DNA of 50,911 nt from positions 1 to 50,911 of the forward strand of contig NZ_CAKMLL010000034.1 of NCBI RefSeq assembly GCF_927797785.1. The letters are read 5' to 3'. The position numbers and the translations under genes were made by a program. Source of the stretch: Candidatus Nitrotoga sp. BS (GTDB lineage Bacteria; Pseudomonadota; Gammaproteobacteria; Burkholderiales; Gallionellaceae). Each line of letters starts with the position of its first letter. Position 1 is the first letter of the stretch. The notes beneath the pieces are model-generated. The model was not told where the DNA came from. It saw only the letters and a program-made list of their open reading frames with translations, and made no database searches. Below are positions 31,378 to 47,059 of the stretch, piece by piece.

Positions 31378-31423
31378 GTGCAAACAAAACAAAATGTTCC
31401 GTTAGCTTTTATTCCGCAAAGAG

Positions 31424-31697: not shown

Positions 31698-33086
31698 ATG
31701 CAACAGAAACCAGAACACGCTACCAATACCGTAAACAACCAGGAAAAAAGTCTTTCCTTGCTGGTAGAGCAGGCGATGGATGGCGCATCTACAGATCAAC
31801 TCTTGCATACACTACAACAGCTGCACTCTTCCGAAATCGCGGATGTACTGGAATCGCTTCCGTACGAAGAACGTCTGTTCTTATGGCGATTACTGGATGC
31901 CGACACAAAGGGAGATGTGCTGGTTGAAGCCCATGGTGAGGTGCGGCGGCAGCTGATAGGTAAAACTTCATCTGAAGAACTGGTGATGGCCGTGGAGCGT
32001 TTGGATTTGGATGCGCTTGCCGATCTGGACGCCCATTTGCCAGACGAGGTGGTTTCTGCAGTATTGCAGGCGATGGATGCGCAGCGAAGGCGCCGTTTCG
32101 ATGCGGTGCGATCATATCCAGACGACTCTGCGGGCGGACTGATGGATGCCGATGCCATCGCTGTTCGGGGCGATGTCACCCTGGACGTTGTACTCCGCTA
32201 CGTTCGTCAACTCAGGCGGCAGAAAAAAGAAATTCCAGAGCATCTTGATACCCTCATGGTGGTTAGCAATGACAATGATTTCTTGGGTGTACTGTACCTG
32301 GTCGATCTGGTTTCCTCTGACCTGCGCAGCACCGTGGCGGATGTGATGGTTCGTAAGATTGAACCCATTCCGGCTGACATGCCGGCACGCAAGGTGGCCC
32401 GTGCTTTCGAGAATATGGACATGATCTCTGCTCCTGTTGTGGACAAAGAGGGGCATTTGATAGGTCGCATCACGGTGGACGATGTGCTCGATGTGATCAG
32501 GGAGGAAGGCGATAGATCAGTCAGACAAATGGGCGGGGTGCATGATGAAACAGATATCTTCGCACCGGCCATGACGAGTGCGAGACGTCGTTCGGTGTGG
32601 CTTGGCGTCAATCTGATTAACGGTTTTGTAGCGGCATGGGTGATAGGCATGTTCGGGGAAAGTATCGAAAAAATGGTGGCACTCGCGATACTCATGCCCG
32701 TTGTAGCCGGCATGGGAGGCGTGGCCGGCACGCAGACGATGACCATCGTGACACGCGGACTTGCTTTAGATCAGGTGGTACGCGGAAATTCACTGCAACT
32801 TTTATACAGGGAGCTGGCTGTGGGTGCCCTGAACGGCCTACTGTGGGGTGTGCTGGTGGCAGCGATAGCCGTGTTCTGGTTCGACAACACAATGCTGGGC
32901 CTGGTTTTTGCGCTGGCACTGATTATCAATCTGTTTGTCGGGGCACTTGCTGGTACGGTGGTTCCATTGTTTTTGCATCGCATAGGAATTGATCCGGCCC
33001 TTGCCGGCGGCGTGCTTCTGATCGCCGTTACAGATGTTTTGGGATTCACGGTTTTTCTCGGGCTTGCCACGCTGGTATTGTTATGA
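31698..33086 (+). CDS. mgtE: Magnesium transporter MgtE
   Basis: This 462-residue protein has the usual MgtE layout: N-terminal superhelical domain (about residues 30-145, with DSAGGLMDADA at its end), two CBS domains (about 150-280, with VDDVLDVIREEGDRSV) and five membrane helices (about 300-460). The pore signature PVVAGMGGVAGTQTMTIVTR is present. The cytoplasmic domains sense Mg2+ and close the channel. The ribosome site CGGAGAATAA precedes the ATG. The following 110 bp hold a small fragment of a relE toxin gene. Confidence 0.96.
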   Translation: MQQKPEHATNTVNNQEKSLSLLVEQAMDGASTDQLLHTLQQLHSSEIADVLESLPYEERLFLWRLLDADTKGDVLVEAHGEVRRQLIGKTSSEELVMAVERLDLDALADLDAHLPDEVVSAVLQAMDAQRRRRFDAVRSYPDDSAGGLMDADAIAVRGDVTLDVVLRYVRQLRRQKKEIPEHLDTLMVVSNDNDFLGVLYLVDLVSSDLRSTVADVMVRKIEPIPADMPARKVARAFENMDMISAPVVDKEGHLIGRITVDDVLDVIREEGDRSVRQMGGVHDETDIFAPAMTSARRRSVWLGVNLINGFVAAWVIGMFGESIEKMVALAILMPVVAGMGGVAGTQTMTIVTRGLALDQVVRGNSLQLLYRELAVGALNGLLWGVLVAAIAVFWFDNTMLGLVFALALIINLFVGALAGTVVPLFLHRIGIDPALAGGVLLIAVTDVLGFTVFLGLATLVLL

Positions 33087-33092
33087 AGTAAT

Positions 33093-33139
33093 CCCGTTTA
33101 GCAAAAGACGCACTCCGCGAACTTCCCGAGTGTTTATAA
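33093..33139 (+). pseudogene. relE toxin gene fragment
   Basis: 47 bp that match 38768-38815 of the intact relE gene with few differences; reading RLAKDALRELPEC it ends at TAA. It is a scrap left by recombination and has no start or function of its own. Confidence 0.75.
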
Positions 33140-33259
33140 GAGCTAACATGCGACGTTTTTTGTCCAAAAAAACGATGATATGTCGTATGCTTTTGTTTAT
33201 ATATATTTATTTAATTTAGGATTTCTTGTGCCAGGGATCGACCACCTTCTCTGGCTCTG

Positions 33260-35191
33260 ATGCCAAGACCCATGACCCACAAATACACACCGATACGCGA
33301 CTATGCAGTTATCGGCGATTGCCATGGCAGCGCACTTGTAGGGCTCGATGGCAGTATCGACTGGTGTGCGCTGCGGCGGTTCGATGCCGATCCGATCTTC
33401 TGTCGCCTGCTGGATGCCGGGCTTGGCGGCTTCTGGTCGGTTCGTCCGGCCGGGCCAATGACTGTAACCCGGGCCTATGTCCCCGACACGAACGTGCTCG
33501 TCACGACTTTCACGACACCTACCGGAACGCTGCGCGTCACCGACTTCATGCCGGTTGGCCGCCAGATCGATGCGAGCGCGCACGACTATGTATCCCTCAG
33601 CGCGCCCAACTGGGTCGTGCGGCGCGTCGAGGTGGTCAGCGGGCAGGTCGACGTGAAGGTACGGTACCGCCCTTCGCGTCATTTCGCCCGCGATGACGTG
33701 ACCCTTACGGTCGCGGCAGGTGTCGTAACCGGTATCGACGTACCCTCGCTGCATTCGGATTTGCCGTTCGTCGTGACGAACGGGGTTGCGGAGGCCAGGG
33801 TGACGCTGGGCACAGGAGCATGCCGTGATATGGTCCTGGCTGGCAACTCCGTGAGCGGGGTCGCGCCTGCCACGCGGGTGTGCGAGTTTCTTAATATCAC
33901 ACTTGCTTTCTGGCAGGAGTGGATCGCATATTGCCGCTATAACGGACCGTATGCCGAGACCGTCAAGCGCAGCGCGCTGGTTCTCAAGGCCATGACCTAC
34001 GCACCCACAGGCGCGCTGGTGGCGGCGCTTACCACGTCGCTTCCCGAGCAGATAGGCGGGGAACGCAACTGGGATTACCGGTACACATGGCTGCGCGATG
34101 GCAGCCTGATGCTCTACGCGCTGGCAGCGCTTGGCTACAGTGGCGAGGCGCGGAACTACCACCGCTTTCTTGCAACGGCCTGCAGGGAGACGCTGCCGCG
34201 TGTGCAAATCATGTATGGCATTGACCACAGCCACGCTCTCCATGAGCGGGTGATCGAGCATCTTGAGGGCTACCAGGGCAGCCGACCGGTGCGTGTGGGC
34301 AATGGCGCCTATTTGCAGCAACAGATCGACGTATATGGCGAAACGCTCGATCTGGCCCTGCTTAGCCAATCGCTTGGCGAGAAGCTGAGCGTGCAGTACC
34401 TGCGCTTGTTGCAGACCTTCGCCGAGTTCGTGGCCGCGCATTGGCAAGATCCCGATCAGGGACTGTGGGAGATGCGCGGCCCGCCACGCCACCATGTGCA
34501 TGGCAAGTTGATGAGCTGGGTGGCGATGGATCGCGCTGCCCAATTGTTTAGCGGTGCGCCACGTTGGCAAAAACTGGCCGACACGATTCATGCCGATATC
34601 ATGCAATATGCGATAGACCCGGTCGGAGGTCACCTGCGACAGGCCTACGACGGTGGTGTCGACGCGGCCGTGCTGCTCGCGCCGATGCTGGCATTTCCGC
34701 TGGATCGTAAGATACTTGAGCGCACGATCGATGTAGTCGAGAAAACGCTGGGGAACGGTGATTTTGTCTTGCGGTACCGCGGTGAGGACGGTCTTCCCGG
34801 CGAGGAGGGCGCGTTCCTCATCTGCAGCTTCTGGCTGGTTGATGCCAAGCTTGCGGTGGGGCGCATCGACGAGGCACGCGGACACTTCGAACGGCTGCTC
34901 GGCTACGCGAACGACGTTGGCCTCTATGCCGAGGAGGCTGATATCGCGAGCGGCGCGTTCCTTGGAAATTTTCCGCAGGCATTCACTCACCTCGCGCTGG
35001 TGAACAGTGCGGCACATCTGGACCTGTACGAAAGGTTCGGCGCTAACGGACTGCAGGGTTCGCATGCCGATCGTGCGAAGCGCTCGGTTATCGCGACCTT
35101 TGGCTGGCGCGGCATCGTCGCATCAATCCGCGTCTCCGGATTGCGCGCCAGGTTGTGGTCGTCGGACCGGTCAAAACTCGCCTGGCCCTAG
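33260..35191 (+). CDS. Glycoside hydrolase family 15 protein (glucoamylase/trehalase-like)
   Basis: This 643-residue cytoplasmic enzyme has an N-terminal beta domain (residues about 10-230, RDYAVIGDCHGSALVGLDGS) and a C-terminal (alpha/alpha)6 barrel. GH15 signatures are NWDYRYTWLRDGS from residue 270, GLWEMRG with the probable catalytic acid Glu404, HVHGKLMSWVAMDRA, and GEEGAFLICSFWLVDA with the second Glu near 515-516. The family hydrolyses alpha-glucosidic bonds; bacterial proteins of this architecture include trehalases and glucoamylases, and sequence alone does not decide. The start is uncertain: ATG 33260 or 33272, neither with a strong ribosome site. GC content is higher than in the neighbours, which hints at separate ancestry. 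A 622-codon antisense frame is a shadow. Confidence 0.9.
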   Translation: MPRPMTHKYTPIRDYAVIGDCHGSALVGLDGSIDWCALRRFDADPIFCRLLDAGLGGFWSVRPAGPMTVTRAYVPDTNVLVTTFTTPTGTLRVTDFMPVGRQIDASAHDYVSLSAPNWVVRRVEVVSGQVDVKVRYRPSRHFARDDVTLTVAAGVVTGIDVPSLHSDLPFVVTNGVAEARVTLGTGACRDMVLAGNSVSGVAPATRVCEFLNITLAFWQEWIAYCRYNGPYAETVKRSALVLKAMTYAPTGALVAALTTSLPEQIGGERNWDYRYTWLRDGSLMLYALAALGYSGEARNYHRFLATACRETLPRVQIMYGIDHSHALHERVIEHLEGYQGSRPVRVGNGAYLQQQIDVYGETLDLALLSQSLGEKLSVQYLRLLQTFAEFVAAHWQDPDQGLWEMRGPPRHHVHGKLMSWVAMDRAAQLFSGAPRWQKLADTIHADIMQYAIDPVGGHLRQAYDGGVDAAVLLAPMLAFPLDRKILERTIDVVEKTLGNGDFVLRYRGEDGLPGEEGAFLICSFWLVDAKLAVGRIDEARGHFERLLGYANDVGLYAEEADIASGAFLGNFPQAFTHLALVNSAAHLDLYERFGANGLQGSHADRAKRSVIATFGWRGIVASIRVSGLRARLWSSDRSKLAWP

Positions 35192-35203
35192 GCTTAGGGG
35201 CGA

Positions 35204-35309
35204 TTGTGCATGGTTGCCATTTTTTACCTCTCAGTGATAGTCTTGATAATCCACTAATAGCGCATCGCCATTTTCAAATCGAAAAGTGATGCGCCAGTTT
35301 CCATTAAGT
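35204..35309 (-). pseudogene. higB 3' end / higA 5' end fragment
   Basis: About 106 bp matching the higB-higA junction at 39325-39430 (ends of NWRITFRFENGN..LVDYQDYH and the start of higA). It is cut at both sides, immediately after the GH15 gene and before the first copy of the 746-bp duplication. Confidence 0.8.
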
Positions 35310-35322
35310 TGCTCTTCTTAAG

Positions 35323-36068
35323 TTGCTTAAATTCCGCCTGATTTTTCCATCCTTTGATTGCTGCGCCCATATTACGGATAATGGAAAAATGATACTAACG
35401 TCACGCCCCTATCTTGCTGTGATGGCCATGATGTTGTTGTGCTCAGGCTGCGCGACTTATCAACCTGCGCGTACCGATAATATCTGCTCCATCTTCCGTG
35501 GTGAAACCGATTGGTATGAGTCTGCCCGCGATGCCAATGAAAGCTGGGGAACGCCGGTGTGGGTGATGATGGCGATTATCGATCAGGAATCGCGTTTTGT
35601 CAGTGATGCGCAACCGGAACGAGACTGGTTTCTTTTTATCCCACTGCCGCGCCGCTCATCGGCTTACGGCTATGCCCAGGCGCAAGATCCGGCGTGGGAA
35701 GATTATGTAAATGAGACGGACAACGGCGGCCATGACCGTGATGATTTTGCCGATGCGATCAATTTTGTTGGCTGGTATACCCACACGACGCAACGCATCC
35801 TTGGCATCTCCAAATGGGATGCCTACAACCAGTACCTCGCCTATCATGAAGGGCGTAGTGGTTATCAGAGTGGAAGCTGGAAAAACAAGGGATGGTTGAA
35901 GCAGGTAGCCAACAAGGTCAGAAATAAATCGGCCGCCTACAATGCCCAGCTGAAGAAGTGCAAGCCGGAGCTGGACGACATGGTGGACAGCTGGTTTTAA
36001 AAAATTTAGTACAAAATTTGCAAAATGGATAGGTCAGCTCACTATTTATGTGTATTTATCCTCAAAAA
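35323..36068 (+). repeat. 746-bp direct repeat, left copy
   Basis: Nearly identical to 40823-41568, exactly 5500 bp away; differences are confined to a few bases at the edges. It contains a whole lipoprotein gene plus its flanks. Confidence 0.9.
35389..36000 (+). CDS. SLT-like (transglycosylase-related) lipoprotein, copy 1
   Basis: This 203-residue lipoprotein has lipobox LLCSGC (Cys18) and a domain related to lytic transglycosylases (SLT/lysozyme-like). The probable catalytic Glu is in MMAIIDQESRF, followed by YGYAQAQDPAWEDY and NQYLAYHEGRSGY, which matches the SLT pattern of a Gln/Gly-rich second motif. It would cut peptidoglycan from the periplasmic side. The start ATG 35389 is chosen because the signal peptide begins there; the longer frame from 35323 reads through a non-coding leader. 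The protein is the same as the copy at 40889, as judged from the translations. Confidence 0.85.
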   Translation: MILTSRPYLAVMAMMLLCSGCATYQPARTDNICSIFRGETDWYESARDANESWGTPVWVMMAIIDQESRFVSDAQPERDWFLFIPLPRRSSAYGYAQAQDPAWEDYVNETDNGGHDRDDFADAINFVGWYTHTTQRILGISKWDAYNQYLAYHEGRSGYQSGSWKNKGWLKQVANKVRNKSAAYNAQLKKCKPELDDMVDSWF

Positions 36069-36264
36069 TGACTCTGGCCCTTAAGCTGACAACGACACGT
36101 TTTCAACCTATTGCTGCTCCATTACTAATGTCACAAAATATTGATTTATTTAATATATTTTGTTCAGGTAATCTTTGAGGCCTTAATGTCTGCTAGTATC
36201 AAGGGTTGAACCGATTATCTTCAACGTTCAACTCACAGGATGAAAAATTAAGGATGACAAATTG

Positions 36265-36654
36265 ATGAAAAACTTTTCCCTCAAATCGAATCGAATGATG
36301 CATACAGCCGGTTGGGCTGTTGCTGCTTTACTGTTCATGGCAGGTTGCTCAAACAGCCAGGCGCCTAACGAACAAATGGCTGTCTCCAAAGCTGCGGTAA
36401 ACAATGCAATGCTTGCCGGAAGTAATGAGTTTGCGCCGATCCAGCTCAAGTCTGCAATGGATAAGATGAATGCTGCCGAGAAAGCCATGACAGACAAAAA
36501 CTATGACCTTGCCAAAAAAATGGCGGAACAAGCAGAAGTCGACGCCAAGCTGGCCGGAGAAATGACGCGCTCAGCCAAGACGCAGAAAGCGGCGAACGCA
36601 TTGCAGGAAGACGTTCGCGTGCTGCGCCAGGAAATCGAACGTACTACACAATAA
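36265..36654 (+). CDS. DUF4398 lipoprotein
   Basis: This 129-residue lipoprotein has lipobox LFMAGC and a helical mature part with AMDKMNAAEKAMTDKNYDLA and AEQAEVDAKLAGEMTRSAKT, typical of DUF4398. Such genes are usually followed by an OmpA-like gene, as here (8 bp + leader). Start ATG 36265 is preferred to the TTG at 36262, with AAGGA upstream. The protein should sit in the outer membrane and may help the OmpA-like partner anchor to the wall; that role is inferred. Confidence 0.85.
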   Translation: MKNFSLKSNRMMHTAGWAVAALLFMAGCSNSQAPNEQMAVSKAAVNNAMLAGSNEFAPIQLKSAMDKMNAAEKAMTDKNYDLAKKMAEQAEVDAKLAGEMTRSAKTQKAANALQEDVRVLRQEIERTTQ

Positions 36655-36674
36655 TCATCAAAATGGAGTTAATT

Positions 36675-37829
36675 ATGCAAAAAGTTCGATACGTTCCCAT
36701 GAGCCTCATCGTCATCGGGATGTTCTCTGGCTGTGCCACCGTGCCGTCAGAAAACGCTTCTCTCAAGCATGCGCATAGCAGTTACAACAGCGCTCGAAGT
36801 AACCCGCAGGTCACCAAGCTGGCAGCAATAGAGCTGCAAGATGCCGGCGAAACGCTGAGAAAAGCTGATGCTGCATTGAGCAAGCGCGAAGGTGATCCCA
36901 CAGTCAATCAACTAGCTTATCTTGCAAAACAAAAAGTGGCGATCGCGCAGGAAACCGCCAAGCGCAAAGCCGCCGAATTGGAAATTGCCAACGCCAGTGC
37001 CCAACGCGATCAAGTCCGCCTGGAGGCAAGAACAGCTGAAGCCGATGCGGCCAAAAAGCGGGCTGAGCTTGCGCAGCAAACTGCCGATCAACGTGCAGTG
37101 GCATTGGCAGTAGCCACTGCCAAAACGAAACAAGACCAGGCACTTATTGCTGCAAGAATAGCTGAAGTCGAAGAAGCCAAGAAGCAGGCAGCGATGGCGC
37201 AGGAATCCGCTGACAAGCAGGCTGCTGCATTGGCGGAAGCCAGCACCAAAGCTGAACAAGACCAGACAATCATTGCGGCGAAAATGGCTGAAGCCGAAAA
37301 AGCCAGGAAGCAGGCAGCGATGGCCCAGGAATCCGCTGACAAGCAAGCTGCTGCATTGGCAGAAGCCCAAGCCAATGCAGCGCGTAACCAGGCACTGATT
37401 GCCGAACAGGAAATGCAACTCAAGAAGTTAAAGGCCAAGAAAACGGCTCGTGGCATGGTGATTACGCTGGGTGACGTGCTATTCAATGTCAACAAGGCAC
37501 GGCTGTCGGCGGGCGGCATCAACAACGTGAAAAAGCTGGCTGACTTTCTCAATAAATACCCGCAACGCAAGGTTATGATTGAAGGCCACACGGACAGCAC
37601 TGGCAGTGACAGCCACAATCAGGCGCTCTCTGAAAAACGCGCCAATGCCGTTCAGGCCGCACTGGTCGACATGGACATCAGTAGTGATCGCATCGCCACA
37701 CGCGGATATGGTGAAGCCTCTCCGGTTGCCAGCAACGGCACTGCGGCAGGTCGTCAAATGAATCGTCGAGTGGAAATTATCCTCTCTGACGATGCGGGCA
37801 ACATCGTTCCACGCGATGAAAAATCCTGA
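36675..37829 (+). CDS. OmpA-family lipoprotein with coiled-coil repeats
   Basis: This 384-residue protein has lipobox MFSGC, an N-terminal DUF4398-like helical part, then three tandem 42-residue coiled-coil repeats (each with KK/RKQAAMAQESADKQ-like sequence). It ends in an OmpA-C peptidoglycan-binding domain (about residues 265-375, LGDVLFNVNKARL, IEGHTDSTGSDSHNQALSEK, RGYGEASPVASN, RRVEI). The start at 36675 is chosen because GGAG lies just upstream; an ATG at 36663 would put that sequence inside the gene. It probably bridges the outer membrane and the cell wall. It forms a pair with the DUF4398 gene and ends at a clear terminator. Confidence 0.92.
   Translation: MQKVRYVPMSLIVIGMFSGCATVPSENASLKHAHSSYNSARSNPQVTKLAAIELQDAGETLRKADAALSKREGDPTVNQLAYLAKQKVAIAQETAKRKAAELEIANASAQRDQVRLEARTAEADAAKKRAELAQQTADQRAVALAVATAKTKQDQALIAARIAEVEEAKKQAAMAQESADKQAAALAEASTKAEQDQTIIAAKMAEAEKARKQAAMAQESADKQAAALAEAQANAARNQALIAEQEMQLKKLKAKKTARGMVITLGDVLFNVNKARLSAGGINNVKKLADFLNKYPQRKVMIEGHTDSTGSDSHNQALSEKRANAVQAALVDMDISSDRIATRGYGEASPVASNGTAAGRQMNRRVEIILSDDAGNIVPRDEKS
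37038..37415 (+). repeat. Three tandem 126-bp coding repeats
   Basis: Units at 37038-37163, 37164-37289 and 37290-37415 encode 42-residue coiled-coil repeats in the OmpA-like protein. Units 2 and 3 are the most alike, so the number may vary between strains. Confidence 0.85.
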
Positions 37830-37876
37830 ATAAACTCCCAGCCGTTTCATCAGTAAAGTAAGTGGTTGCTGCAAAG

Positions 37877-37904
37877 AAAAAGCCCGGCATTGCCGGGTTT
37901 TTTT
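37877..37904 (+). terminator. Rho-independent terminator after the OmpA-like gene
   Basis: Stem CCCGGCA / TGCCGGG followed by seven T. It lies 48 bp after the stop codon. Confidence 0.85.
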
Positions 37905-37939
37905 GTTTCTACGATCAATCGTGATCGATCTCAGCTTGT

Positions 37940-38050
37940 TCAAGCAGGTAGTGCACAATCAATCACGCCAATCAGGATACGGTGGCTTTCTTCCGGAGCC
38001 AGTGTTTGACGCAGACGCTCTTCTAGTTCTTGGGCACTATGAATTTTCCC
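37940..38050 (-). pseudogene. 3' end of an unknown gene (fragment)
   Basis: The minus strand reads ELEERLRQTLAPEESHRI..IGVIDCALPA and a stop at 37940-37942. It looks like the tail of a protein-coding gene, but upstream the frame runs antisense through an antitoxin-like gene. I do not recognise the family. Confidence 0.35.
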
Positions 38051-38266
38051 GCCGCCATCGGGCAACGTGTTATCGCGTGGCAGATCGAACTGGAAATGAA
38101 AGCGCAAATCCTGAATAAAACAGAGTTGGCAAAAAAGATGCACACCAGCCGCGCTGCTATGAATCGCATGCTGGACGAAAACGACACCAGCTTCACGGTC
38201 ACCACACTGGTCAATGCGATGGTGGTGACGGGCAAAACGTTGAAGGCAGAATTGGCGATGGCTTGA
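38030..38266 (+). pseudogene. Truncated XRE antitoxin gene
   Basis: From about 38066 the 78-residue frame matches the XRE antitoxin at 40117-40404 (RVI.WQIE.EMKAQ, NKTE.AKKMHTSRAA, LDENDTS). The first 25 or so residues of that antitoxin are missing and replaced by unrelated sequence. The helix-turn-helix is complete, so the product might still bind DNA, but no toxin gene precedes it. Most likely a 5'-truncated duplicate. Confidence 0.7.
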
Positions 38267-38410
38267 AAAAACAACCGGAGTTAAGCCCGATTAAAATACC
38301 TGCAAAAAAAATTGGGTTTCCTCCTCATTATGTTCATTGGTTGGAATCAAAGTAATTGACCATGACCGCACAATTCAATACACTTAAGCGTACATTATTA
38401 AGGACAAAAT

Positions 38411-38668
38411 ATGGACGCCATACATGCAGGAATCACCATCGGAGTCACCGAGCTGCGCGAGTCACCGACACGTATACTCAAGCGCGCAGAAGACGAAAAT
38501 CAGGCAGTTGCCATCCTTAACCACAACAAGCCAGCGGGCTACATCGTCTCGCCCAGAATGATGGAAGCAATGCTGGACTCCATCGCCGAAAACATCGCGA
38601 TAAATCGCGCGAAAGAACGCCTCTCGTCATTAAGCAAAGCGCGCAAGGTAAAGCTGGATGAGCTATGA
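38411..38668 (+). CDS. Phd/YefM-family antitoxin (RelB-like)
   Basis: This 85-residue antitoxin has the Phd/YefM fold: GVTELRESPTRILKRA, then VAILNHNKPAGYIVSP, the conserved beta-strand region. The C-terminal tail AKERLSSLSKARKVKLDEL should wrap the toxin. The ribosome site AAGGA precedes the ATG. It overlaps the relE toxin gene by 11 bp. The antitoxin normally binds its own promoter; the leader contains CTTAAG and ATTAAG half-sites. Confidence 0.9.
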   Translation: MDAIHAGITIGVTELRESPTRILKRAEDENQAVAILNHNKPAGYIVSPRMMEAMLDSIAENIAINRAKERLSSLSKARKVKLDEL

Positions 38669-38942
38669 AATCGCTATCCATCCCGATGCCGAAAAAGAAT
38701 GGGCAAAACTGGATGGCAGCATCAAGCAACGCTTCAAAGAAAAGCTAGCCAAAGAACGTCTCAAGCTTCCCCGTGTAGCGAAAGACGCACTCCGCGAACT
38801 TCCCGATTGTTACAAAATCAAGATCACCACGCCGCAGTTTCGCCTTATTTACCACGTCAACGACGCAAAGAAATTAGTGACCATCCTGTCGGTCGCAACC
38901 CGCGATGACGTCTATGCAGATTTACGCGCACGGCTAGGATAA
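38658..38942 (+). CDS. relE: RelE/StbE-family toxin
   Basis: This 94-residue RelE-superfamily toxin has EIAIHPDAEKEWAKLDGSIK at the N terminus, KERLKLPRVA in the middle and the C-terminal core CYKIKITTPQFRLIYHVNDAKK, then TILSVATRDD. Such toxins cut mRNA at the ribosome. It overlaps the antitoxin gene, which supports coupled expression. A fragment of the same gene (RLAKDALRELPEC) lies downstream of mgtE, 5.7 kb away. Confidence 0.92.
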   Translation: MSYEIAIHPDAEKEWAKLDGSIKQRFKEKLAKERLKLPRVAKDALRELPDCYKIKITTPQFRLIYHVNDAKKLVTILSVATRDDVYADLRARLG

Positions 38943-39054
38943 TTTATTAGGGGTAAGATCGCCCAGCGATGCCGGTTTTTTTTGTTTCTACAAGAAATTT
39001 GAGGGCAGATGCAGGATCAATCAAGTTTAGCCCCATTGATTTACCTTGGTTTTA

Positions 39055-39336
39055 TTACGCTGCCAAGACTAATGGAACGATGCGTGGACGTTGCACCTTG
39101 GATGCCAGCCAAAGTTCGTAATCATTTTGTAACCCCATCCACATTACAGGGCTAGTGCCTAAAGCAGCCTGAAGGCGCAATGCCATATCCGCCGAGATAC
39201 CGGAAGTGCCGTTCAATATTCGGGAAAGCGTAGCGCGTGCCACGCCGAGATGCTGAGCCGCATCGGTAACGCTCATTTCGCCCAGCCATTCTCGCAAGAT
39301 TTCGCCGGGGTGCGGCGGGTTGTGCATGGGTGCCAT
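39055..39336 (-). CDS. higA: HigA-type antitoxin (XRE family)
   Basis: This 93-residue HTH antitoxin starts [20 protein letters not shown], the usual HigA start. The helix-turn-helix follows ([20 protein letters not shown]). The end [12 protein letters not shown] is also the usual family tail. The ribosome site GAGGGGTG precedes the ATG. The toxin gene just upstream (39349-39614) is frameshifted, so this is an orphan antitoxin that may still repress its promoter. A 3' fragment of the same gene recurs at 40621-40722. Confidence 0.92.
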
Positions 39337-39348
39337 TTTTTACACCCC

Positions 39349-39614
39349 TCAGTGATAGTCCTGATAATCCACCAACAGCGCATTGCCATTTTCAAATCGA
39401 AAAGTGATGCGCCAATTTCCATTGACCGTGATCGCCCAGTGGCCTGTCAGATTTCCCTTGAACACATGCAGCTGGCCATATCGGCAGGTACTTTTGCGAG
39501 ATTCAACGCAGCCAATTGCAATCGTAAACGTGGTGCCTGTGCTGCCTGAATACCGGCCTTGGAGCCTGTCTTAAAAAAGGCATTGATACCTTTGTGCGAA
39601 AAGCTCTTTATCAT
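39349..39614 (-). pseudogene. higB: higB toxin pseudogene (frameshift)
   Basis: The N-terminal part reads MIKSFSHKGINAFFKTGSK and LAALNLAKVPADM, the C-terminal part LHVFKGNLTGHWAITVNG and LLVDYQDYH, both clear HigB (RelE-like) sequence. They are in different frames. The length (266 nt) is not a multiple of three, and the segment between VPADM and LHVFKG that normally holds about four residues (N.PGW type) is missing. A small deletion near 39480 has broken the toxin. Confidence 0.82.
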
Positions 39615-39772
39615 GAAAGGAAATTGTAATGTGACATGTTACACATATCAATGTGGTGAAAACTGAAAGCTGGCGAAGCCGAGATTTATAGGCAATGAAT
39701 CTCGGTTTTCCCTGATTATTTGCCCTAAAGATATGTTTGCTATGGCGAACCAAAATTGGTACGCTATGCAAC

Positions 39773-40120
39773 ATGACCACGCCAACCTTGGACGTTAGAT
39801 TCTTCAAAACGGATACCGGCAATGAACCGGTACGCGAATGGCTTCGATCTCTGTCGGCAACAGAAAAGAAAATCATAGGTGAGGATATGAAGACAGTGCA
39901 ATTCGGCTGGCCACTCGGCATGCCGCTGGTAGCGCATCTTGGTGGCGATATATGGGAAGTGCGTATCAGGCTGGAGAAGCGCATCGCGCGAATACTCTTC
40001 GCGCTCAAAGGAAATATCATGGTGTTGCTACACGGCTTCATCAAGAAACAACAAAAGACGCCCAAGCCCGATCTCGATCTGGCGAAGGAGCGATTGAAAC
40101 AATTAAGGAGAAAAGCATGA
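39773..40120 (+). CDS. RelE-superfamily toxin, phage Gp49-like (HigB-2 type)
   Basis: This 115-residue toxin starts MTTPTLDVRFFKTDTG and has EPVREWLRSLSATEKKIIGEDM and the core LGGDIWEVRIRLEKRIARILF then LLHGFIKKQQKTP, typical of the phage-derived Gp49-like family (DUF891). The start ATG 39773 is chosen by family match; an open frame from 39737 includes untypical residues. Its stop overlaps the antitoxin start by 4 bp (ATGA). Confidence 0.9.
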   Translation: MTTPTLDVRFFKTDTGNEPVREWLRSLSATEKKIIGEDMKTVQFGWPLGMPLVAHLGGDIWEVRIRLEKRIARILFALKGNIMVLLHGFIKKQQKTPKPDLDLAKERLKQLRRKA

Positions 40121-40404
40121 GCAAGAAAAATATCGGCAGCAGCTTCGATGAATTTCTTACCGAGAACGCCACGCTGAATGAAGCCACCGCTGTCGCCGTC
40201 AAACGTGTCATTACGTGGCAGATCGAACAGGAAATGAAAGCGCAAAACCTGAACAAAACAGAGATGGCGAAAAAGATGCACACCAGCCGCGCCGCCTTGA
40301 ATCGCCTGTTGGACGAGAACGACACCAGCCTCACGCTCACCACACTGGCCAGTGCAGCAGCGGTGCTGGGCAAGACGTTAAAAATGGAACTGGCGGTGGC
40401 TTGA
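40117..40404 (+). CDS. XRE-family antitoxin
   Basis: This 95-residue partner of the Gp49-like toxin has a HigA2-like layout: N-terminal SSFDEFLTE, then a helix-turn-helix NKTEMAKKMHTSRAALNRLL. The order toxin first, antitoxin second is typical of this pair type. The ribosome site AAGGAG (40105-40110) lies inside the toxin gene. A truncated paralogue lies at 38030-38266. Confidence 0.92.
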   Translation: MSKKNIGSSFDEFLTENATLNEATAVAVKRVITWQIEQEMKAQNLNKTEMAKKMHTSRAALNRLLDENDTSLTLTTLASAAAVLGKTLKMELAVA

Positions 40405-40491
40405 GAAACAAATTCGAAGCTAAGCTTTTTACCTCTTCATACTTTCAAAAAGTGTGATTGCAATACCTGACCCAATACTATTCGGATAATG

Positions 40492-40560
40492 CCGTTCGCC
40501 CTTAGCTTGTCGAAGGGTGGGTGTTCGGACATAAGGCTTCGACAAGCTCGGCCCGAACGG
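40492..40560. repeat. REP-like inverted repeat
   Basis: Arms CCGTTCG...TTAGCTTGTCGAAG and CTTCGACAAGCTCG...CGAACGG around a short spacer. It has the same core as the element at 21359-21474. Confidence 0.75.
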
Positions 40561-40620
40561 TTTTCTGGTTTGCCTGGCTTAACCGAACAGCATTGATACC
40601 TGACCCTATCGATTGCAAGA

Positions 40621-40722
40621 TCGATCGAGTTTAGCCCCATTGATTTACCTTGATTTGATTACGCTGCCAAGGCTAATGGAGCGATGCGTGGACGTTTCAC
40701 TTTGGATGCCAGCCAAAGCCGT
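40621..40722 (-). pseudogene. higA 3' fragment
   Basis: About 100 bp that match 39017-39118 (end of higA and its downstream flank) with about 10% differences. It is cut at 40722, shortly before the second copy of the 746-bp duplication. Confidence 0.8.
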
Positions 40723-40822
40723 ATTCAGTAGCATGAAAAAACAATCCGCCAAATTGGCTGCCGCAGACAATAGCTATTAAGCCGTATTGCGCGGATCAAC
40801 CACTGCCTCCGGGTCTCACGCT

Positions 40823-41568
40823 TTGCTTAAATTTCCCCGGATTTTTCCATTCTTTGATTGCTGCGCCCATATTACGGATAATGGAAAAATGATACTAACG
40901 TCACGCCCCTATCTTGCTGTGATGGCCATGATGTTGTTGTGCTCAGGCTGCGCGACTTATCAACCTGCGCGTACCGATAATATCTGCTCCATCTTCCGTG
41001 GTGAAACCGATTGGTATGAGTCTGCCCGCGATGCCAATGAAAGCTGGGGAACGCCGGTGTGGGTGATGATGGCGATTATCGATCAGGAATCGCGTTTTGT
41101 CAGTGATGCGCAACCGGAACGAGACTGGTTTCTTTTTATCCCACTGCCGCGCCGCTCATCGGCTTACGGCTATGCCCAGGCGCAAGATCCGGCGTGGGAA
41201 GATTATGTAAATGAGACGGACAACGGCGGCCATGACCGTGATGATTTTGCCGATGCGATCAATTTTGTTGGCTGGTATACCCACACGACGCAACGCATCC
41301 TTGGCATCTCCAAATGGGATGCCTACAACCAGTACCTCGCCTATCATGAAGGGCGTAGTGGTTATCAGAGTGGAAGCTGGAAAAACAAGGGATGGTTGAA
41401 GCAGGTAGCCAACAAGGTCAGAAATAAATCGGCCGCCTACAATGCCCAGCTGAAGAAGTGCAAGCCGGAGCTGGACGACATGGTGGACAGCTGGTTTTAA
41501 AAAATTTAGTACAAAATTTGCAAAATCGATAGGTCAGCTCACTATTCATGTGTATTTATCCTCAAAAA
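40823..41568 (+). repeat. 746-bp direct repeat, right copy
   Basis: Partner of 35323-36068 at exactly +5500. The edges are TTGCTTAA on the left and CTCAAAAA on the right. The sequence diverges immediately outside. Confidence 0.9.
40889..41500 (+). CDS. SLT-like (transglycosylase-related) lipoprotein, copy 2
   Basis: Encodes the same 203-residue protein as the gene at 35389-36000: lipobox LLCSGC, probable catalytic Glu in MMAIIDQESRF, YGYAQAQD and NQYLAYHEGRSGY motifs. The start is chosen in the same way. Because the sequence is identical, the duplication is recent or maintained by conversion, and both copies are probably expressed from the same kind of short leader. It lies tail to tail with the large DUF4365-TPR-PIN gene, 137 bp apart. 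Confidence 0.85.
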   Translation: MILTSRPYLAVMAMMLLCSGCATYQPARTDNICSIFRGETDWYESARDANESWGTPVWVMMAIIDQESRFVSDAQPERDWFLFIPLPRRSSAYGYAQAQDPAWEDYVNETDNGGHDRDDFADAINFVGWYTHTTQRILGISKWDAYNQYLAYHEGRSGYQSGSWKNKGWLKQVANKVRNKSAAYNAQLKKCKPELDDMVDSWF

Positions 41569-41637
41569 GGACACCTTAAGCTGATGACCCCAATTCATGA
41601 CTGTATATCTCTTTTTTAAAAAATCGAAGCCAACTCT

Positions 41638-44600
41638 CTAGTTCGTCGCCAATTCAATTCTTTTATCTGAGTAAGCTTTCATAAAGTCATCATAGTCCTG
41701 CGTTCCCTCAACTAAACCAGATGAAAGCGTCTCAATAATTACTCCCCCAATCTCAGACGTTTCGATTCCACTCGAAGATTTTGTTTGCGCAACTTTTGCA
41801 TTAGCATTAGCGATTTCAGCGCTCAAGATAGCCACATCCAGCAATGCCTTTTTCATACTTTTCTCATTTGAAGATACTCCTAAGACTTTTTCAACCGCAT
41901 CTCTGTATACGCTCCATAGTCGCTCCATGCTTTCTTTCTTACACCCTCGCATAAAGCTTCCTGCTAAAACAAGTGAATTTGCCAAATGCATCTCAGGAGG
42001 TGCCCCCAACTTTTCGTTAAATTGGACCTTCTCGGCCCAAAGCTGCCAAATCGCCGCGACAATCTCTACTCTCTCTGTTCCTTCTCGAGACAGATAGGAG
42101 AGCAAATAAGCTATATGTCTAACTAGACCTTCATAGTTCAGCTTGAAGTCCCAAACACCTTTAGCAAGAGCCATAAAGTCATCTGCACTTTTCAGCATGC
42201 CAAGGATTATTGTGGATTCAGAATAAGAAACAATTTCGGGTGGGATGGCTGCAAGGAAATACTTTTGCTGCACTACTATTCCAACGTTCCACCGACATAG
42301 TTGCGCTAAGGTTTTCGCAACGTCACCACATGAAAAATGCCCTTGAGTCTCCAAAGCTTGGAGTACATCCAATGAGCAAATGCTTGTCGTTTTAGGTGTT
42401 TCATGTGTCAGATACATTCTGAAAACAGCATCATCCGAGTACAACAAATAGTCGCCTGTTTTGCATATCTCCAAGAACTCGTTTGTTTTGGCTATTGGGC
42501 CACCAGATAATATGGCCTTGGACAAATTTCCCGGTTGAATTACCTGTGAGAGATTATTTCTCAGTCTTTCGAGCACACGGTCTATAAGAGCAATGTTGAA
42601 TGTCCCCGTAAACGGGTGAGACAATGAAGTCAGTTCAGCAATAACAAATTTCGGTACCGCAATGCGGCCAAACAGCGTTATAACTTTACCCAGCAGCTCC
42701 AAGTCTTCCAGCAAAAGCAAAGTAGGCAAGTCGAGCAAAGGTAATTTTTGAGAACCATCAGACAAATCAACTGGGACACGATCAACCTCAGCTAACAATA
42801 GCAAATGGTACTGTCTGGCATCTTTCTTCGAACTCTTTGCAACTTCCCATAAATGAGCTACATCCCGAATATTCGGTAATAATCTTGGCCTCCAAATAAA
42901 CGGTGCCGACATTTCACCTGACTGCAATTTTCTTTCATTACGTTCGAGGTTGGCGATTATTTCAGGCGTCATGCCTGTCAATTCACGGAGCTTTTTGAGG
43001 ATGCCTTCCCCATCTTTCGGGACTTCAACCTGCCGGAGCAATCTAGAGTCAGAAAACTGCTCTGAAAACTTTCTCAGCCGTTCTTGAAACAGTCTAGCCT
43101 CGTCCTGATCCACTTCATCTTCTTTTGTGCTTAAGGTCGCCGCGAAGAATAGCTGCAGGTAAAGGCCTTCTTCCTCTTCTATATCCCTTTGTACGAGTTT
43201 TCCGAGTTGATCTGCAATCCCTTTTAACGAGTTGCTTCCAGGATTTATTTTGTACTCCAAGTTAAACAGTAACTTTAGAGCATCCAATTTGTCTTCGCGC
43301 AATGTGCTTTGCTGATAATGCTTTCTAACAAGTTCCTTTGCTTCTTCAAACAATCCGCAGCGACTGGCGATACTGATGTATTGTTCGTAAGCAGTAGCAT
43401 CATAACCGTCTGCTTTTAGAACCGTATTCAGCGATTCAAGCGCACCAGCCACATTACCTTTCTTGTCCAATGCGAATGCTCTGAGCACATGAAACCGTGT
43501 TTGATCACCGTATTTCAGAAGGGCCTGATCAGCCAATTGAATGGACTCATCCCACCTGCCAGAGGTAATAAAAGCTTGCCCAAGGTGCAAGTTCTCATCC
43601 AACCCCAGCAACCGATGTGTTCGAATTGCTTTTGCCAGTTCAATGCATTCATTCGCCTCATCCTTCTTGGTTGCATCTAGAACCATGAACAAGTGAGAAC
43701 TAACGGTTACCGACTCCGGATATTTGTTATGAGCCTGGCGCAAGTTGTCCAATGCCTCAGTAAACTTGAGCGAATCAGAGCTATCAATGACAAACTTTGC
43801 TACTGCAAGTGCGTCATGCCATTTGGGTTCCTGATTTAGCCTTGTCAAAAATAATTCGCGTTTACCTGGATGGATGACGTCGTCGCTTGATAATGCAGCC
43901 ACACACATACATGAGGGATATAAGTCACTCTCACCGTTGTAAGGCAATAATCTCTCACCCAACTCGATAACCTTGTCTTTATTCTTCAGCTCATAGTTGG
44001 CTAGTGTTCTTTTACACAGAACCTCTTCATCCTCTGGTAATCGTTCAAAAGCCTCTAATGCCGTTATCCTGTCCCCTGAAGTGATTGCAAGTTGACCCAG
44101 GGCCTCATTTACAGCATGCAAATATGGCCGGGATTTGGCCAAGTCTTTTATCAGTGGCAGCACCTCATACTGTTTCTCAAGTACTTGGGCCGTTATCGCG
44201 ACCATATCTAACAGGTACTCAACTGCTATCGGCCACCCAGCTTGTTTCATTTGACCTAAGACCACTGTTAGAGTGGACCATGTCTCCAGAACTTTATTAA
44301 TCTTCATCCTCGGAGTGCCATATGTAGGAATCCTTAAGGGATATGGCTTGCCAACCAAGTCGAATGCCTGAATGAATTGCGCTCTCGATAAAAACATTCG
44401 GAGAAGTCGCTCATCTCTTTCTCTCAGGCCCCCTTTCTCGATTGAAGAGGTACAGGTGCCTTCAAGCCCAATCCAATCACCTTGTAGCAAGTAGACTTTT
44501 GCTTTCGCTACAGCAGCATCTTTTAAAACCATGCCATCAAGGCACTGAAGGGCATCCGCATAAGAACCAAGCAACGATAAGATCACAGATCTTAAATAAA

Positions 44601-45600
44601 GTGACTCTCTTGAACCACTATTAGGAACAGACTGCAGAAGCTTAGAAAGCTCTCCCTGATCTTGATCATCGCTAATAAGTGACAAGCGGGTCTCCAACCA
44701 TCCAATTAAGTATCGCTCTTCTTCTTCCATTAGCAAATGAGCTTTTTCGAACACAGTACATGCTTCCAATTTTTTATTTTGTATCAGTTCTACTCTCGCA
44801 GACTGATAGTGGAATTCGGCTTCCTCATGTGCATTTTTATCTACACTGGCGAGTGGAGTTAGAAGCTTGATTGCCCCTTGGTCATCACTATGTTCTAGTT
44901 TTTCATGAACTGCTTTGAGCTGATGGGCCACACTTCCCTCAGGAGAAGTCAGCCAAGGGAATTGAGACCCTGACAGGGTTGAATCGAGGAACGTCTCGCC
45001 ACTAATTAATCTATCCCTGATCCCTTTATAAACTTCGCTTTCTCTACCTGGAGATTTTTGGCTAATAACAGTGTGCAAAACATCTGAAGCCCTAAGCTTT
45101 TTTACCTGTATGAGCAGGTACTCTAATATCTTGTCATGAGATTTTTCCGTTAGCAGGTTACTAATCGGGACGTGGAATGTGTGTTCCTGCTGAGCCGATG
45201 AAAAATATTCTTCATCCCCTAGTTTTTCCTTGATCTCATCATGAACCCACTGAAAATATACAGGACATTTCCTCGGGTCATTGTCAGCAGACAGATCAGC
45301 ATACAATAAAAGAATTGGTTCAGTTGTATTGCAATAGAAATTCAAAGTAGTTGTTTTTAATGGAACATCAATCAGCCCTTTCTTGCTGACCTTAGTATTT
45401 TCACTCCCTTTCAACTGACCTCTAAACGGAACTATCACAGAACCCGCATTTGTTATTTGGAAGTGATAATCAAAACCAACATCACAATCGCCATCTAATG
45501 CAATTTTCTGCCAAGTCAGCGGCTGATTTGCACTAAGTGCTTTTTGGGCATATCTACCTATGCGCTGTGAGGCACCTACTTTGGGGTATTCAGGTTCCAT
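41638..45600 (-). CDS. DUF4365-TPR-PIN-like protein (candidate defence protein)
   Basis: This 1320-residue cytoplasmic protein has no signal or membrane helix. Residues about 10-165 resemble DUF4365, a PD-(D/E)XK nuclease-like domain: GDCDVGFDYHFQI with Asp44, then FRGQLKGSEN with Gln62 and Lys64 as the (E/Q)xK part, and LLLYADLS and FQWVHDEI as later strands and helices. Residues about 210-900 are helical repeats of TPR type (for example RFHVLRAFALDKKGNVAGAL). Residues about 955-1115 look like a PIN-type nuclease: LLDLPTLLLLEDLELLG (Asp957), VPKFVIAEL (Glu989), LLYSDDAVFRMYL (Asp1056, Asp1057). Two nuclease-like ends joined by a sensor-like array suggest a defence or toxin role, which is inference. 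Base composition is more AT-rich than the housekeeping block. No clear ribosome site is visible. Confidence 0.75.
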   Translation of the reverse strand: MEPEYPKVGASQRIGRYAQKALSANQPLTWQKIALDGDCDVGFDYHFQITNAGSVIVPFRGQLKGSENTKVSKKGLIDVPLKTTTLNFYCNTTEPILLLYADLSADNDPRKCPVYFQWVHDEIKEKLGDEEYFSSAQQEHTFHVPISNLLTEKSHDKILEYLLIQVKKLRASDVLHTVISQKSPGRESEVYKGIRDRLISGETFLDSTLSGSQFPWLTSPEGSVAHQLKAVHEKLEHSDDQGAIKLLTPLASVDKNAHEEAEFHYQSARVELIQNKKLEACTVFEKAHLLMEEEERYLIGWLETRLSLISDDQDQGELSKLLQSVPNSGSRESLYLRSVILSLLGSYADALQCLDGMVLKDAAVAKAKVYLLQGDWIGLEGTCTSSIEKGGLRERDERLLRMFLSRAQFIQAFDLVGKPYPLRIPTYGTPRMKINKVLETWSTLTVVLGQMKQAGWPIAVEYLLDMVAITAQVLEKQYEVLPLIKDLAKSRPYLHAVNEALGQLAITSGDRITALEAFERLPEDEEVLCKRTLANYELKNKDKVIELGERLLPYNGESDLYPSCMCVAALSSDDVIHPGKRELFLTRLNQEPKWHDALAVAKFVIDSSDSLKFTEALDNLRQAHNKYPESVTVSSHLFMVLDATKKDEANECIELAKAIRTHRLLGLDENLHLGQAFITSGRWDESIQLADQALLKYGDQTRFHVLRAFALDKKGNVAGALESLNTVLKADGYDATAYEQYISIASRCGLFEEAKELVRKHYQQSTLREDKLDALKLLFNLEYKINPGSNSLKGIADQLGKLVQRDIEEEEGLYLQLFFAATLSTKEDEVDQDEARLFQERLRKFSEQFSDSRLLRQVEVPKDGEGILKKLRELTGMTPEIIANLERNERKLQSGEMSAPFIWRPRLLPNIRDVAHLWEVAKSSKKDARQYHLLLLAEVDRVPVDLSDGSQKLPLLDLPTLLLLEDLELLGKVITLFGRIAVPKFVIAELTSLSHPFTGTFNIALIDRVLERLRNNLSQVIQPGNLSKAILSGGPIAKTNEFLEICKTGDYLLYSDDAVFRMYLTHETPKTTSICSLDVLQALETQGHFSCGDVAKTLAQLCRWNVGIVVQQKYFLAAIPPEIVSYSESTIILGMLKSADDFMALAKGVWDFKLNYEGLVRHIAYLLSYLSREGTERVEIVAAIWQLWAEKVQFNEKLGAPPEMHLANSLVLAGSFMRGCKKESMERLWSVYRDAVEKVLGVSSNEKSMKKALLDVAILSAEIANANAKVAQTKSSSGIETSEIGGVIIETLSSGLVEGTQDYDDFMKAYSDKRIELATN

Positions 45601-45671
45601 CTAGCTAAGTCTTATAATTGTATGGTGTATGATTAAAATGTACCGGACTCGAATTGTTTTTGCTGATAAAG

Positions 45672-45989
45672 CTACGCAGTCAGCAATTCTTTCTTCAGCG
45701 GCTTGATGTTGGCCAGCTTCTCCGGATGCTGTTGCACGTCCCATAGATCAACAGCCTGCTGCATGCGCAACTAGCTTTCGGGTGTCGTGTTGAGCAATTT
45801 GGCGACGCGCAGCGCCATCTCCGGCGTGACTCCGCGCTTCTCATGCAGCAGTTCCGACAAGGTGAGCCGGGACACGCCGAGGCGTTGGGCTAGCTCGGTC
45901 TGTGTCATTTCCAGCGTGGGCAGCACATCTTCGCGCAGGATCGCGCCCGGATGAGTGGGGCGACGGTTGGGATTTCGTAGTGACTTCAT
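45672..45989 (-). pseudogene. higA: higA-type antitoxin with amber stop
   Basis: The first 72 codons encode a HigA antitoxin (RRPTHPGAILREDVLPTLEM, then TQTELAQRLGVSRLTLSELL). A TAG at 45771-45773 stands where the family has Trp (TTPES-W-LRMQQAVDLWDVQ). Past the stop the same frame continues with normal family sequence to the TAG at 45672-45674. A single TGG to TAG change explains it. The helix-turn-helix is complete, so the shortened protein may still bind DNA. Only the last six or so codons (NLKDYH) of its higB remain at 45990-46014. Confidence 0.85.
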
Positions 45990-46039
45990 CAGTGATAGTC
46001 CTTCAGGTTAAGAATGATAGTCCGCGCTTTCGTATTGAC

Positions 46040-46453
46040 TCACTTCAGCACTACATCACAAAAGGCGGCTGGGGTGATAATTCTGGTTCGTTCAATATGA
46101 CCACGTTGCGATAAGCCAGCGCGGCGATCACCTGTCACCAAATAATCTGCATCGCCCTGCAGTGCCATCGCCAATAAAAACGAATCGTCGGGGTCCTCGG
46201 CTTCAGTGGTGATGGTCAGTTTTTCCAGCACGATGCCACGCTGCAAGTTGTTGAGCATAGTGCCCACTTTTGAGGGCTGTAAAACGGCTTTAAATTTTGG
46301 ATAGTGGCTGGCTCGGCGAATTTCTTCCAATTGTGTTTGCGAGGTCACCACCTCAAATCGCGCCGCACGCCAGGCACGATAAATTGCATCAGGAACACCA
46401 TGAGGAGATATAAGCGCACTGAACAGAATGTTTGTGTCCAGAACGACGCGCAT
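46040..46453 (-). CDS. PIN-domain toxin (VapC-like, TIGR00305 type)
   Basis: This 137-residue putative RNase has the PIN acidic residues: MRVVLDTNILFSALIS (Asp6), QTQLEEIRRA (Glu), DPDDSFLLAMALQG (Asp) and ADYLVTGDRR (Asp). This matches the putative toxin component of PIN family TIGR00305. It would cut RNA. Its start overlaps the end of the antitoxin gene by one base. Confidence 0.92.
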   Translation of the reverse strand: MRVVLDTNILFSALISPHGVPDAIYRAWRAARFEVVTSQTQLEEIRRASHYPKFKAVLQPSKVGTMLNNLQRGIVLEKLTITTEAEDPDDSFLLAMALQGDADYLVTGDRRAGLSQRGHIERTRIITPAAFCDVVLK

Positions 46454-46692
46454 CAGCGTTTACGCGCCCAGGTTAAAGCCTCGTCAACCATTGATGTTAT
46501 GTCAGCTTCGCTCACGTTATTGTTGCTGGTTTTCGCTTGTTCGGCTGTCAGCTCTAAAATATGTGCCTGTACTGCTTCCTCAATAAAGCGTGATAAATCT
46601 CCTTTTTTGCCTCCTCCCTGGCTAGCGAGAAACATGCGAAGAGATCGATCTGTGTCGGCTGAGACAGCAACATTCCAGCGAGTCATATTCAT
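46453..46692 (-). CDS. Ribbon-helix-helix antitoxin
   Basis: This 79-residue antitoxin starts MNMTRWNVAVSADTDRSLRM with the RHH beta-strand, followed by GDLSRFIEEAVQAHIL (helices). It ends in a charged tail VDEALTWARKR expected to bind the PIN toxin. AAGGATC lies upstream of the ATG at 46692. It is the first gene of the pair. Confidence 0.9.
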   Translation of the reverse strand: MNMTRWNVAVSADTDRSLRMFLASQGGGKKGDLSRFIEEAVQAHILELTAEQAKTSNNNVSEADITSMVDEALTWARKR

Positions 46693-46797
46693 GGTGATCC
46701 TTATTTATCGGTGTTTGTGTGTTTATACGCCAACATTTTAGACGATGCAATAGTGAGTTTGATTTAATTAATTATTTAATATAATCAAATAGATGAT

Positions 46798-46953
46798 TCA
46801 ATTTTTGAAAAATAGTCTGGATACATCCGCGCGTGCGGCCAACTCTCTGACAGTCATTTTGTGTTCAATACGAACAACGCGAATCATCATCCCAAGCAAA
46901 GCGAAGGACTCTTTGGCGTAGCGAGAATAAGCACGAGAGATTGGCTTTGTCAT
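46798..46953 (-). pseudogene. Truncated HTH (HipB-like) antitoxin gene
   Basis: The first 45 residues, with SRYAKESFALLGMMIRVVRI and MTVRELAARADVSR, match the N-terminal half of XRE regulators found in HipA-type modules. The frame then runs into unrelated sequence and stops at TGA 46798-46800, losing the recognition helix and the rest. A palindrome just upstream probably was its operator. Confidence 0.72.
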
Positions 46954-46964
46954 ACAAGTTACTC

Positions 46965-47001
46965 ATAAATAAGTCCTGATGTAATCTTAGGACTTGTTTA
47001 T
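46965..47001. promoter_or_regulatory. Operator-like palindrome
   Basis: Arms ATAAATAAGTCCT (46965-46977) and AGGACTTGTTTAT (46989-47001) match as inverted repeats at 12 of 13 positions with an 11-bp spacer. It lies 11 bp upstream of the truncated HTH gene start, where autorepressing antitoxins bind. Confidence 0.6.
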
Positions 47002-47059
47002 GGTCAATATAGCGTGCACGCATAGCGCTATTTCAAAGGGCAAGCTTCGAATTCCTCGC

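Follow-up and report, generated by a model that had tools for sequence, protein, structure and literature searches.

The closest described relatives of the protein analysed here belong to a predicted conflict system, described by Kaur et al. in 2021 (PMC8195603), in which a variable N-terminal effector is followed by TPRs, a GreA/B-C domain and a PIN domain. As set out in the main text of that paper, a constant TPR-GreA/B-C-PIN core carries either EAD10 or an effector of one of 13 kinds, restriction endonucleases (REases) included; the genes are mostly standalone, the predicted target of the proteins is RNA polymerase that viruses have taken over, and docking in the secondary channel of the polymerase has been proposed (PMC8195603). 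The DNA studied is a 50,911-nt stretch (hereafter the window) of Candidatus Nitrotoga sp. BS, contig NZ_CAKMLL010000034.1 of assembly GCF_927797785.1, whose minus strand carries at positions 41638–45600 a complete open reading frame (ORF), from ATG to stop, for a 1320-residue protein with the layout DUF4365-TPR-PIN. Judged by its sequence, this protein is a distant sister variant of the TPR-GreA/B-C-PIN family and not a strict member, because the defining GreA/B-C domain was tested for and not found. With moderate confidence we take it to be a standalone anti-phage or anti-plasmid effector, a self-restrained dual nuclease and sister of the effector-TPR-GreA/B-C-PIN proteins.

The gene is present in a single copy in its own genome and is far longer than expected by chance; when its bases were shuffled 100 times (mononucleotide shuffling), the longest stop-free run was 175 codons (mean 113), compared with the 1320 codons of the ORF. 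At the N-terminal end, residues 19–161 (45118–45546, minus strand) matched the DUF4365 domain, a PD-(D/E)XK-type nuclease domain (Pfam PF14280), at 25.4 bits, only slightly above the cut-off of 24.3; eight other members of the clade described below scored 39.0–49.2 bits. The middle of the protein, approximately residues 225–755 (43336–44928, minus strand), is a TPR-type helical array, recognised by Pfam TPR families, three of them above their cut-offs between DUF4365 and the C-terminal core, together with a sub-threshold ARM_TT21_N match. The Pfam matches, taken up to E 1, included no NTPase family; what came closest was an ATP-cone at E 0.2, which is under its own cut-off and probably a chance match. 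The C-terminal PIN-type domain, approximately residues 954–1095 (42316–42741, minus strand), was located through a sub-threshold match to PF20698 ('PIN domain associated with the TPR-GreAB-C-PIN system') and through profile comparison of the clade. Behind it, residues 1096–1320 (41641–42315, minus strand) form a region modelled by AlphaFold2 as helices at low confidence, which shows faint similarity to the PF20698 proteins (E 0.0035, 48 columns). All six NCBIfam matches, most of them to TPR-type models, fell far under their cut-offs; no APAZ domain was found in the protein and no Argonaute partner was seen. A preliminary description of the locus, made from the letters alone, had proposed this 1320-residue frame, a DUF4365 N terminus, a TPR-type middle without visible NTPase, nuclease-type domains at the two opposite ends of the repeat scaffold and an AT-richer segment. 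The frame, the N terminus and the middle were confirmed, and the putative nuclease domains at either end are supported at the level of sequence. The gene is also AT-richer, with a GC content of 43.4% and a GC content at third codon positions (GC3) of 41.1%, both lower than in any of the seven other window genes chosen for comparison (50.5–59.9% and 49.3–74.6%, respectively).

A first search of genome contigs with the single window protein returned nothing. With a two-sequence profile, seven Pseudomonas homologues were obtained, which matched residues 6–1315 and were 27–28% identical in the best segment. PF20698 itself matched proteins in 13 of 398 genomes, above the cut-off in nine; these nine proteins were used as the comparison family and the four sub-cut-off matches were left out. 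They are 1100–1459 amino acids long, with the PIN domain at the C terminus and Pfam TPR matches in eight of the nine. An N-terminal G-[VIA]-D ... Q-C-[KR] motif resembling that of Mrr-type nucleases was recognised by eye in 8/9, the Pfam Mrr matches being weak and confined to three proteins, and GreA_GreB of Pfam was seen sub-threshold in 4/9. When the PIN region of 14 clade members was compared with that of the nine PF20698 proteins, an E value of 1.3e-7 (probability 94.1, 142 columns) was obtained, compared with 0.24 in the reversed-profile control; with 11 clade members the value was 1.4e-6. The alignment places D957 and the S-D-D motif on their PF20698 counterparts. The PIN region was compared separately because the TPRs inflate the whole-length profile score (E 3.1e-20 against the PF20698 proteins), and this whole-length similarity was rejected as a stand-alone proof of kinship. 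No significant similarity was found between the DUF4365 profile and the Mrr-like N termini of the family (E 0.58 and 0.46); the best of these alignments pairs the motifs G-x-D and Q-x-K. A tree of 24 proteins, built by a quick method, with several long branches and with unlike letter composition flagged, grouped the 15 members as one clade (SH-like approximate likelihood ratio test, SH-aLRT, 100), which the long-branched L052 joins at 99.

The GreA/B-C domain was searched for with a model which, in leave-one-out tests, found it in eight of the nine held-out family members, its column range coming from an alignment that included the held-out members. The full model matched 0/14 clade members (best score 1.8 bits), the fifteenth member was also without a match, and profile comparison with the clade gave E 0.86. 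The window protein and its clade have the PF20698-type PIN (at clade level), the TPR array, an REase-type N-terminal effector and the standalone gene; the GreA/B-C domain between TPR and PIN was not found. The family member missed by the held-out model is L052 (L052:7053-10355), a PF20698 protein of 1100 amino acids with no Pfam TPR match and a very long tree branch; its case shows that in other proteins, too, GreA/B-C may escape detection or be absent.

As GreA/B-C is undetectable, the proposed docking on RNA polymerase would be dispensable in the clade or replaced, possibly by a conserved segment at approximately residues 890–945 (42766–42933, minus strand), which the alignments show as G-x4-PF-x-WRPR ... 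HLWEVAK ... RQYHL. An alternative is that the protein still acts on RNA polymerase, with this segment as the docking element in place of GreA/B-C. The segment, which stands immediately before the PIN domain, shows strong conservation when the window protein is set beside the Pseudomonas members, with G895, P900, F901 and W918 in 14/14. However, neither the segment nor the protein resembles GreA/B-C by hidden Markov model (HMM) search or by the profile comparison given above, and the polymerase role is itself a prediction for the relatives (PMC8195603). This alternative is improbable.

Active-site residues were tallied in the 15 near-full-length clade members, leaving out P0002 and P0006, two truncated plasmid proteins; the 15 do not count as independent, because the set includes seven mutually close Pseudomonas proteins and the close pairs L071/L072 and P0003/P0005. 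D40, D44, Q62 and K64 were identical in all 15, the putative nuclease active site D44 ... Q62-L-K64 (45409–45471, minus strand) being invariant. In the PIN domain, the aspartates D1056-D1057 of the S-D-D motif (42430–42435, minus strand) were also present in 15/15; the first acidic residue, D957 (42730–42732, minus strand), was D in 12/15 and E in 3/15, and E989 was conserved in 10/15 and replaced in 5/15. Of the positions singled out in the preliminary description, D44, Q62, K64, D1056 and D1057 thus hold throughout, and D957 and E989 hold in the fractions given. TmuRE, the DUF4365 protein of the short-Argonaute system TmuRE-Ago, is described as cleaving DNA non-specifically upon activation, and its Q62A/K64A double mutant was used as the inactive form (PMC10810196); that the numbers Q62 and K64 recur in TmuRE and in the window protein is chance. 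The tally bears on a second alternative, in which DUF4365 is the sole effector and the PIN-derived domain is a nucleic-acid-binding sensor of invader RNA that relieves inhibition via the TPRs. It would account for a DUF4365 site that is invariant whereas E989 is lost in five members and D957 is changed in three. An invariant D1056-D1057 pair, however, and the joint retention of D957 and E989 in ten of the 15, the window protein included, are what is expected for a catalytic site, and we regard the sensor role of the PIN domain as unlikely, if less so than action on RNA polymerase.

In the mechanism proposed for a self-restrained dual nuclease, the TPR solenoid would keep the N-terminal DUF4365 nuclease and the C-terminal PIN-type RNase inactive and would also be the likely sensor of the trigger, binding a product of infection. 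Binding of the trigger would release both nucleases, DNA and RNA would be degraded, and the cell or the invader would be stopped. DUF4365 would be the constant nuclease, and PIN a second nuclease in most members, perhaps a mere binding domain where E989 is lost. Docking in the secondary channel of RNA polymerase is probably not involved, since GreA/B-C is not recognisable. Nuclease activity and auto-inhibition are predictions for the window protein, and so are abortive infection and trigger sensing by the repeats, which the preliminary description had suggested. What the sequences show is its domain makeup, its conserved active-site residues, the kinship of its PIN domain with PF20698, the lack of a detectable GreA/B-C and the sporadic distribution of the gene. 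It is a more tentative proposal, and a doubtful one, that the protein constitutes a separate, hitherto undescribed defence system of a single gene. Here a DNase (DUF4365) and an RNase (PIN) would be linked through a TPR sensor within the same chain, with no NTPase and no RNA-polymerase docking domain, and the trigger alone would suffice to turn the resting scaffold into a nuclease for two substrates.

Several observations weigh against the reading as a dual-nuclease defence effector. The PF20698 match of the window protein (residues 956–986) is sub-threshold, at 20.9 bits against a cut-off of 27.8. A PIN model built from the nine family proteins gave the window protein 6.6 bits, the seven Pseudomonas rows 14.0–18.2 bits and the three Enterobacter rows values below zero; held-out family members reached at least 36.7 bits in 8/9, and the ninth, L052, 4.8 bits. 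L077, whose whole-protein score of 40.2 bits exceeds the same PF20698 cut-off and speaks for the kinship, although no single stretch of it falls under 1e-3, obtained just 10.1 bits with a wider PIN model of the nine. Whole-length scores are, as mentioned, raised by the TPRs, and with E989 replaced in five members, some of the clade may have an inactive PIN domain. AlphaFold2 models of residues 1–255 and 690–1320, built from eight-sequence alignments, had a mean predicted local distance difference test score (pLDDT) of 37.9 and 48.0, respectively, and left the folds unconfirmed; helices were modelled from residue 690, with ten-residue means of 55–83 only up to about residue 820. A sequence search of the PDB with the N-terminal and C-terminal parts returned nothing relevant. 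Because both models are poor, the assignment of nuclease folds to the two end domains relies on sequence. None of the families in PADLOC-DB 2.0.0 (5027 models) matched the window protein up to E 1, and in the open-access PubMed Central (PMC) literature no experimental test of the TPR-GreA/B-C-PIN family was found. Lastly, the defence-type neighbours of the relatives, described below, are suggestive context and not a measured enrichment, because they were not counted against a random-gene control.

The gene is rare and sporadic in its distribution. Searches of 18 further genomes of the genus, several of them incomplete, did not detect it. At the level of the order (399 genomes), three genomes besides the window's own had a long match and one, G679, a DUF4365-only match that was not counted in the clade; at the level of the class (369 genomes), one relative was found besides the window's own genome; and at the level of the phylum (398 genomes, searched with an earlier profile), the full length was matched only in the own genome, 25 others giving short, mostly TPR matches. 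No relatives were detected in 50,697 phage records, nor in three scans of viral contigs. Among plasmids, relatives occurred in 10 of 72,556 records, seven from Enterobacter and three from P. aeruginosa, and an Enterobacter plasmid gene used as DNA query was detected in a single genome out of 5,426 from E. coli, where it is plasmid-borne. In the intact Enterobacter proteins P0003, P0004 and P0005, DUF4365 is above its cut-off and the genes lie directly upstream of one for a tyrosine integrase; of the three plasmids, two were typed as conjugative and one as non-mobilizable. A traI gene lies within some kilobases in 3/4 inspected Enterobacter loci, none being present in the stretch seen for the fourth. 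At L073 (L073:7081-11130), a clade member probably lies in a prophage, because it stands between terminase and DnaB-like genes. DUF4365 serves other architectures too, as indicated by a different protein of 695 amino acids (L074:8142-10229), with an N-terminal DUF4365 and no further Pfam match, whose gene follows, at a distance of about 5 kb, one for a transposase that carries rve and Mu C-terminal domains.

Truncated plasmid copies were seen at two loci, L002 and L006; the P. aeruginosa copy follows an IS66-type element and lacks its 5' part, and the Enterobacter copy starts beside a Tn3 transposase gene. These shortened copies, together with the weak single-sequence scores of the window protein, could indicate a decaying or non-functional repeat protein whose domain matches are coincidental. 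Against this, 1320 codons have stayed open, and the domain order and active-site residues are kept across lineages that are 17–37% identical among seven rows compared; this conservation makes decay a very remote prospect.

The neighbours of the relatives were also inspected. A divergent gene for a protein of 950–962 amino acids, with a similar start in each case, accompanies 6/7 Pseudomonas loci (L058, L059, L060, L061, L062 and L064, the last from P. putida). The only one scanned (L058:4850-7702) encodes an ATPase of SMC/AAA type, LmuB-like by its match to Lamassu (5.9e-23); the gene could be a further defence gene or a partner confined to this lineage. None was recognised at L063 or in the Enterobacter and prophage loci, and a search of the window's genome, run with no positive control, gave no match; this ATPase was not taken to be an obligate partner. 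In PADLOC runs on ten chosen Pseudomonas neighbours, two were without match and eight were matched, two of them strongly and the rest at weaker or trace level. The strong matches are a PifA-like KAP NTPase (5.7e-96) adjoining one copy and a retron reverse transcriptase-protease (1.9e-183) adjoining another. A TIR gene lies near the relative at one Enterobacter plasmid locus. The defence setting suggested in the preliminary description finds partial support, in the strong PADLOC matches beside two Pseudomonas copies and in a sporadic, partly mobile distribution.

These surroundings can also be read as those of an anti-plasmid or element-competition gene of islands, plasmids and prophages that is not mainly anti-phage. 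The position of the Enterobacter versions upstream of a tyrosine integrase, the nearby traI in three of four loci and the one member in a probable prophage are in line with such a role. On the other hand, two Pseudomonas copies adjoin anti-phage-type genes, and anti-phage genes too are usually carried on mobile elements. We consider a role mainly in element competition rather unlikely, between the sensor role of the PIN domain and action on RNA polymerase in its chances.

In the window, the gene lies in a variable stretch (30500–47044). The M18 peptidase gene and the DEAD-box helicase gene (DbpA-type domain) are about 16.5 kb apart, whereas the gap between the same flanking genes is 3.3 and 2.8 kb in the two fetched same-genus genomes that have both flanks. 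Toxin-antitoxin (TA)-type genes stand on both sides of the DUF4365-TPR-PIN gene, in agreement with the TA modules noted in the preliminary description. No neighbour, TA genes included, was recognised as common to the lineages in the inspected loci, and the TA genes were not taken to be part of the system. Directly upstream, on the same strand, lies a HigA-type antitoxin gene (45771–45989), which is apparently shortened, as the model match ends at position 64 of 81; the ORF list showed no HigB-like frame immediately adjacent to it. An SLT-type transglycosylase gene lies on a 750-bp segment that occurs twice in direct orientation (35323–36072 and 40823–41572, 99.1% identity); the two copies flank about 4.7 kb with TA-type genes, and about 65 bp separate the end of the second from the 3' end of the DUF4365-TPR-PIN gene. 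None of the other 18 genomes of the genus gave a match to the SLT-type transglycosylase protein. Elsewhere in the window (12909–21103), large direct repeats of up to 3.36 kb at 86% identity extend over ORFs of 992 and 981 amino acids, an apparent tandem gene duplication.

The preliminary description knew of no described system with this exact architecture. That statement was too strong, since the general layout had been predicted in 2021 in the text cited above (PMC8195603) and the PIN domain has a Pfam model. What sets the window protein apart, as far as its sequence indicates, is that DUF4365 serves as its N-terminal effector and that no GreA/B-C is detectable. DUF4365 is not named in the main text of PMC8195603, whose source-data files may list DUF4365 or members without GreA/B-C; in the open-access PMC literature, no paper combining DUF4365, PIN and TPR and no description of such a layout were found. 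The short-Argonaute systems with DUF4365-APAZ (TmuRE-Ago, PMC10810196; SPARDA, PMC12205087) share with the window protein DUF4365, the Q-x-K site and its inclusion in a larger defence protein, and differ in that the window protein has TPR and PIN in place of APAZ/Argonaute. In DS-3 and DS-5 (DefensePredictor, PMC13092281), a PIN RNase is required for phage defence, and DS-3 is a single protein without cognate antitoxin. The likeness, which is one of description only, lies in the common PIN domain; neither DUF4365 nor a DUF4365-TPR layout occurs in the portion of PMC13092281 available. The TPR-GreA/B-C-PIN system is likewise a single protein of about 1300 residues, encoded by a standalone gene of sporadic distribution, with an N-terminal effector, a long TPR array and a related C-terminal PIN. 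The window clade differs from it in having no detectable GreA/B-C (0/15), in its DUF4365 effector, whose profile does not match the N termini of the family (E 0.46), in its conserved 890–945 segment and in forming a separate clade in the tree (SH-aLRT 100). A sister without GreA/B-C offers a direct test of the sequence-based TPR-GreA/B-C-PIN proposal. If it defends, docking on RNA polymerase would not be essential to the TPR-PIN scaffold, and DUF4365, known from the short-Argonaute systems, would gain a link to a second kind of sensing scaffold.

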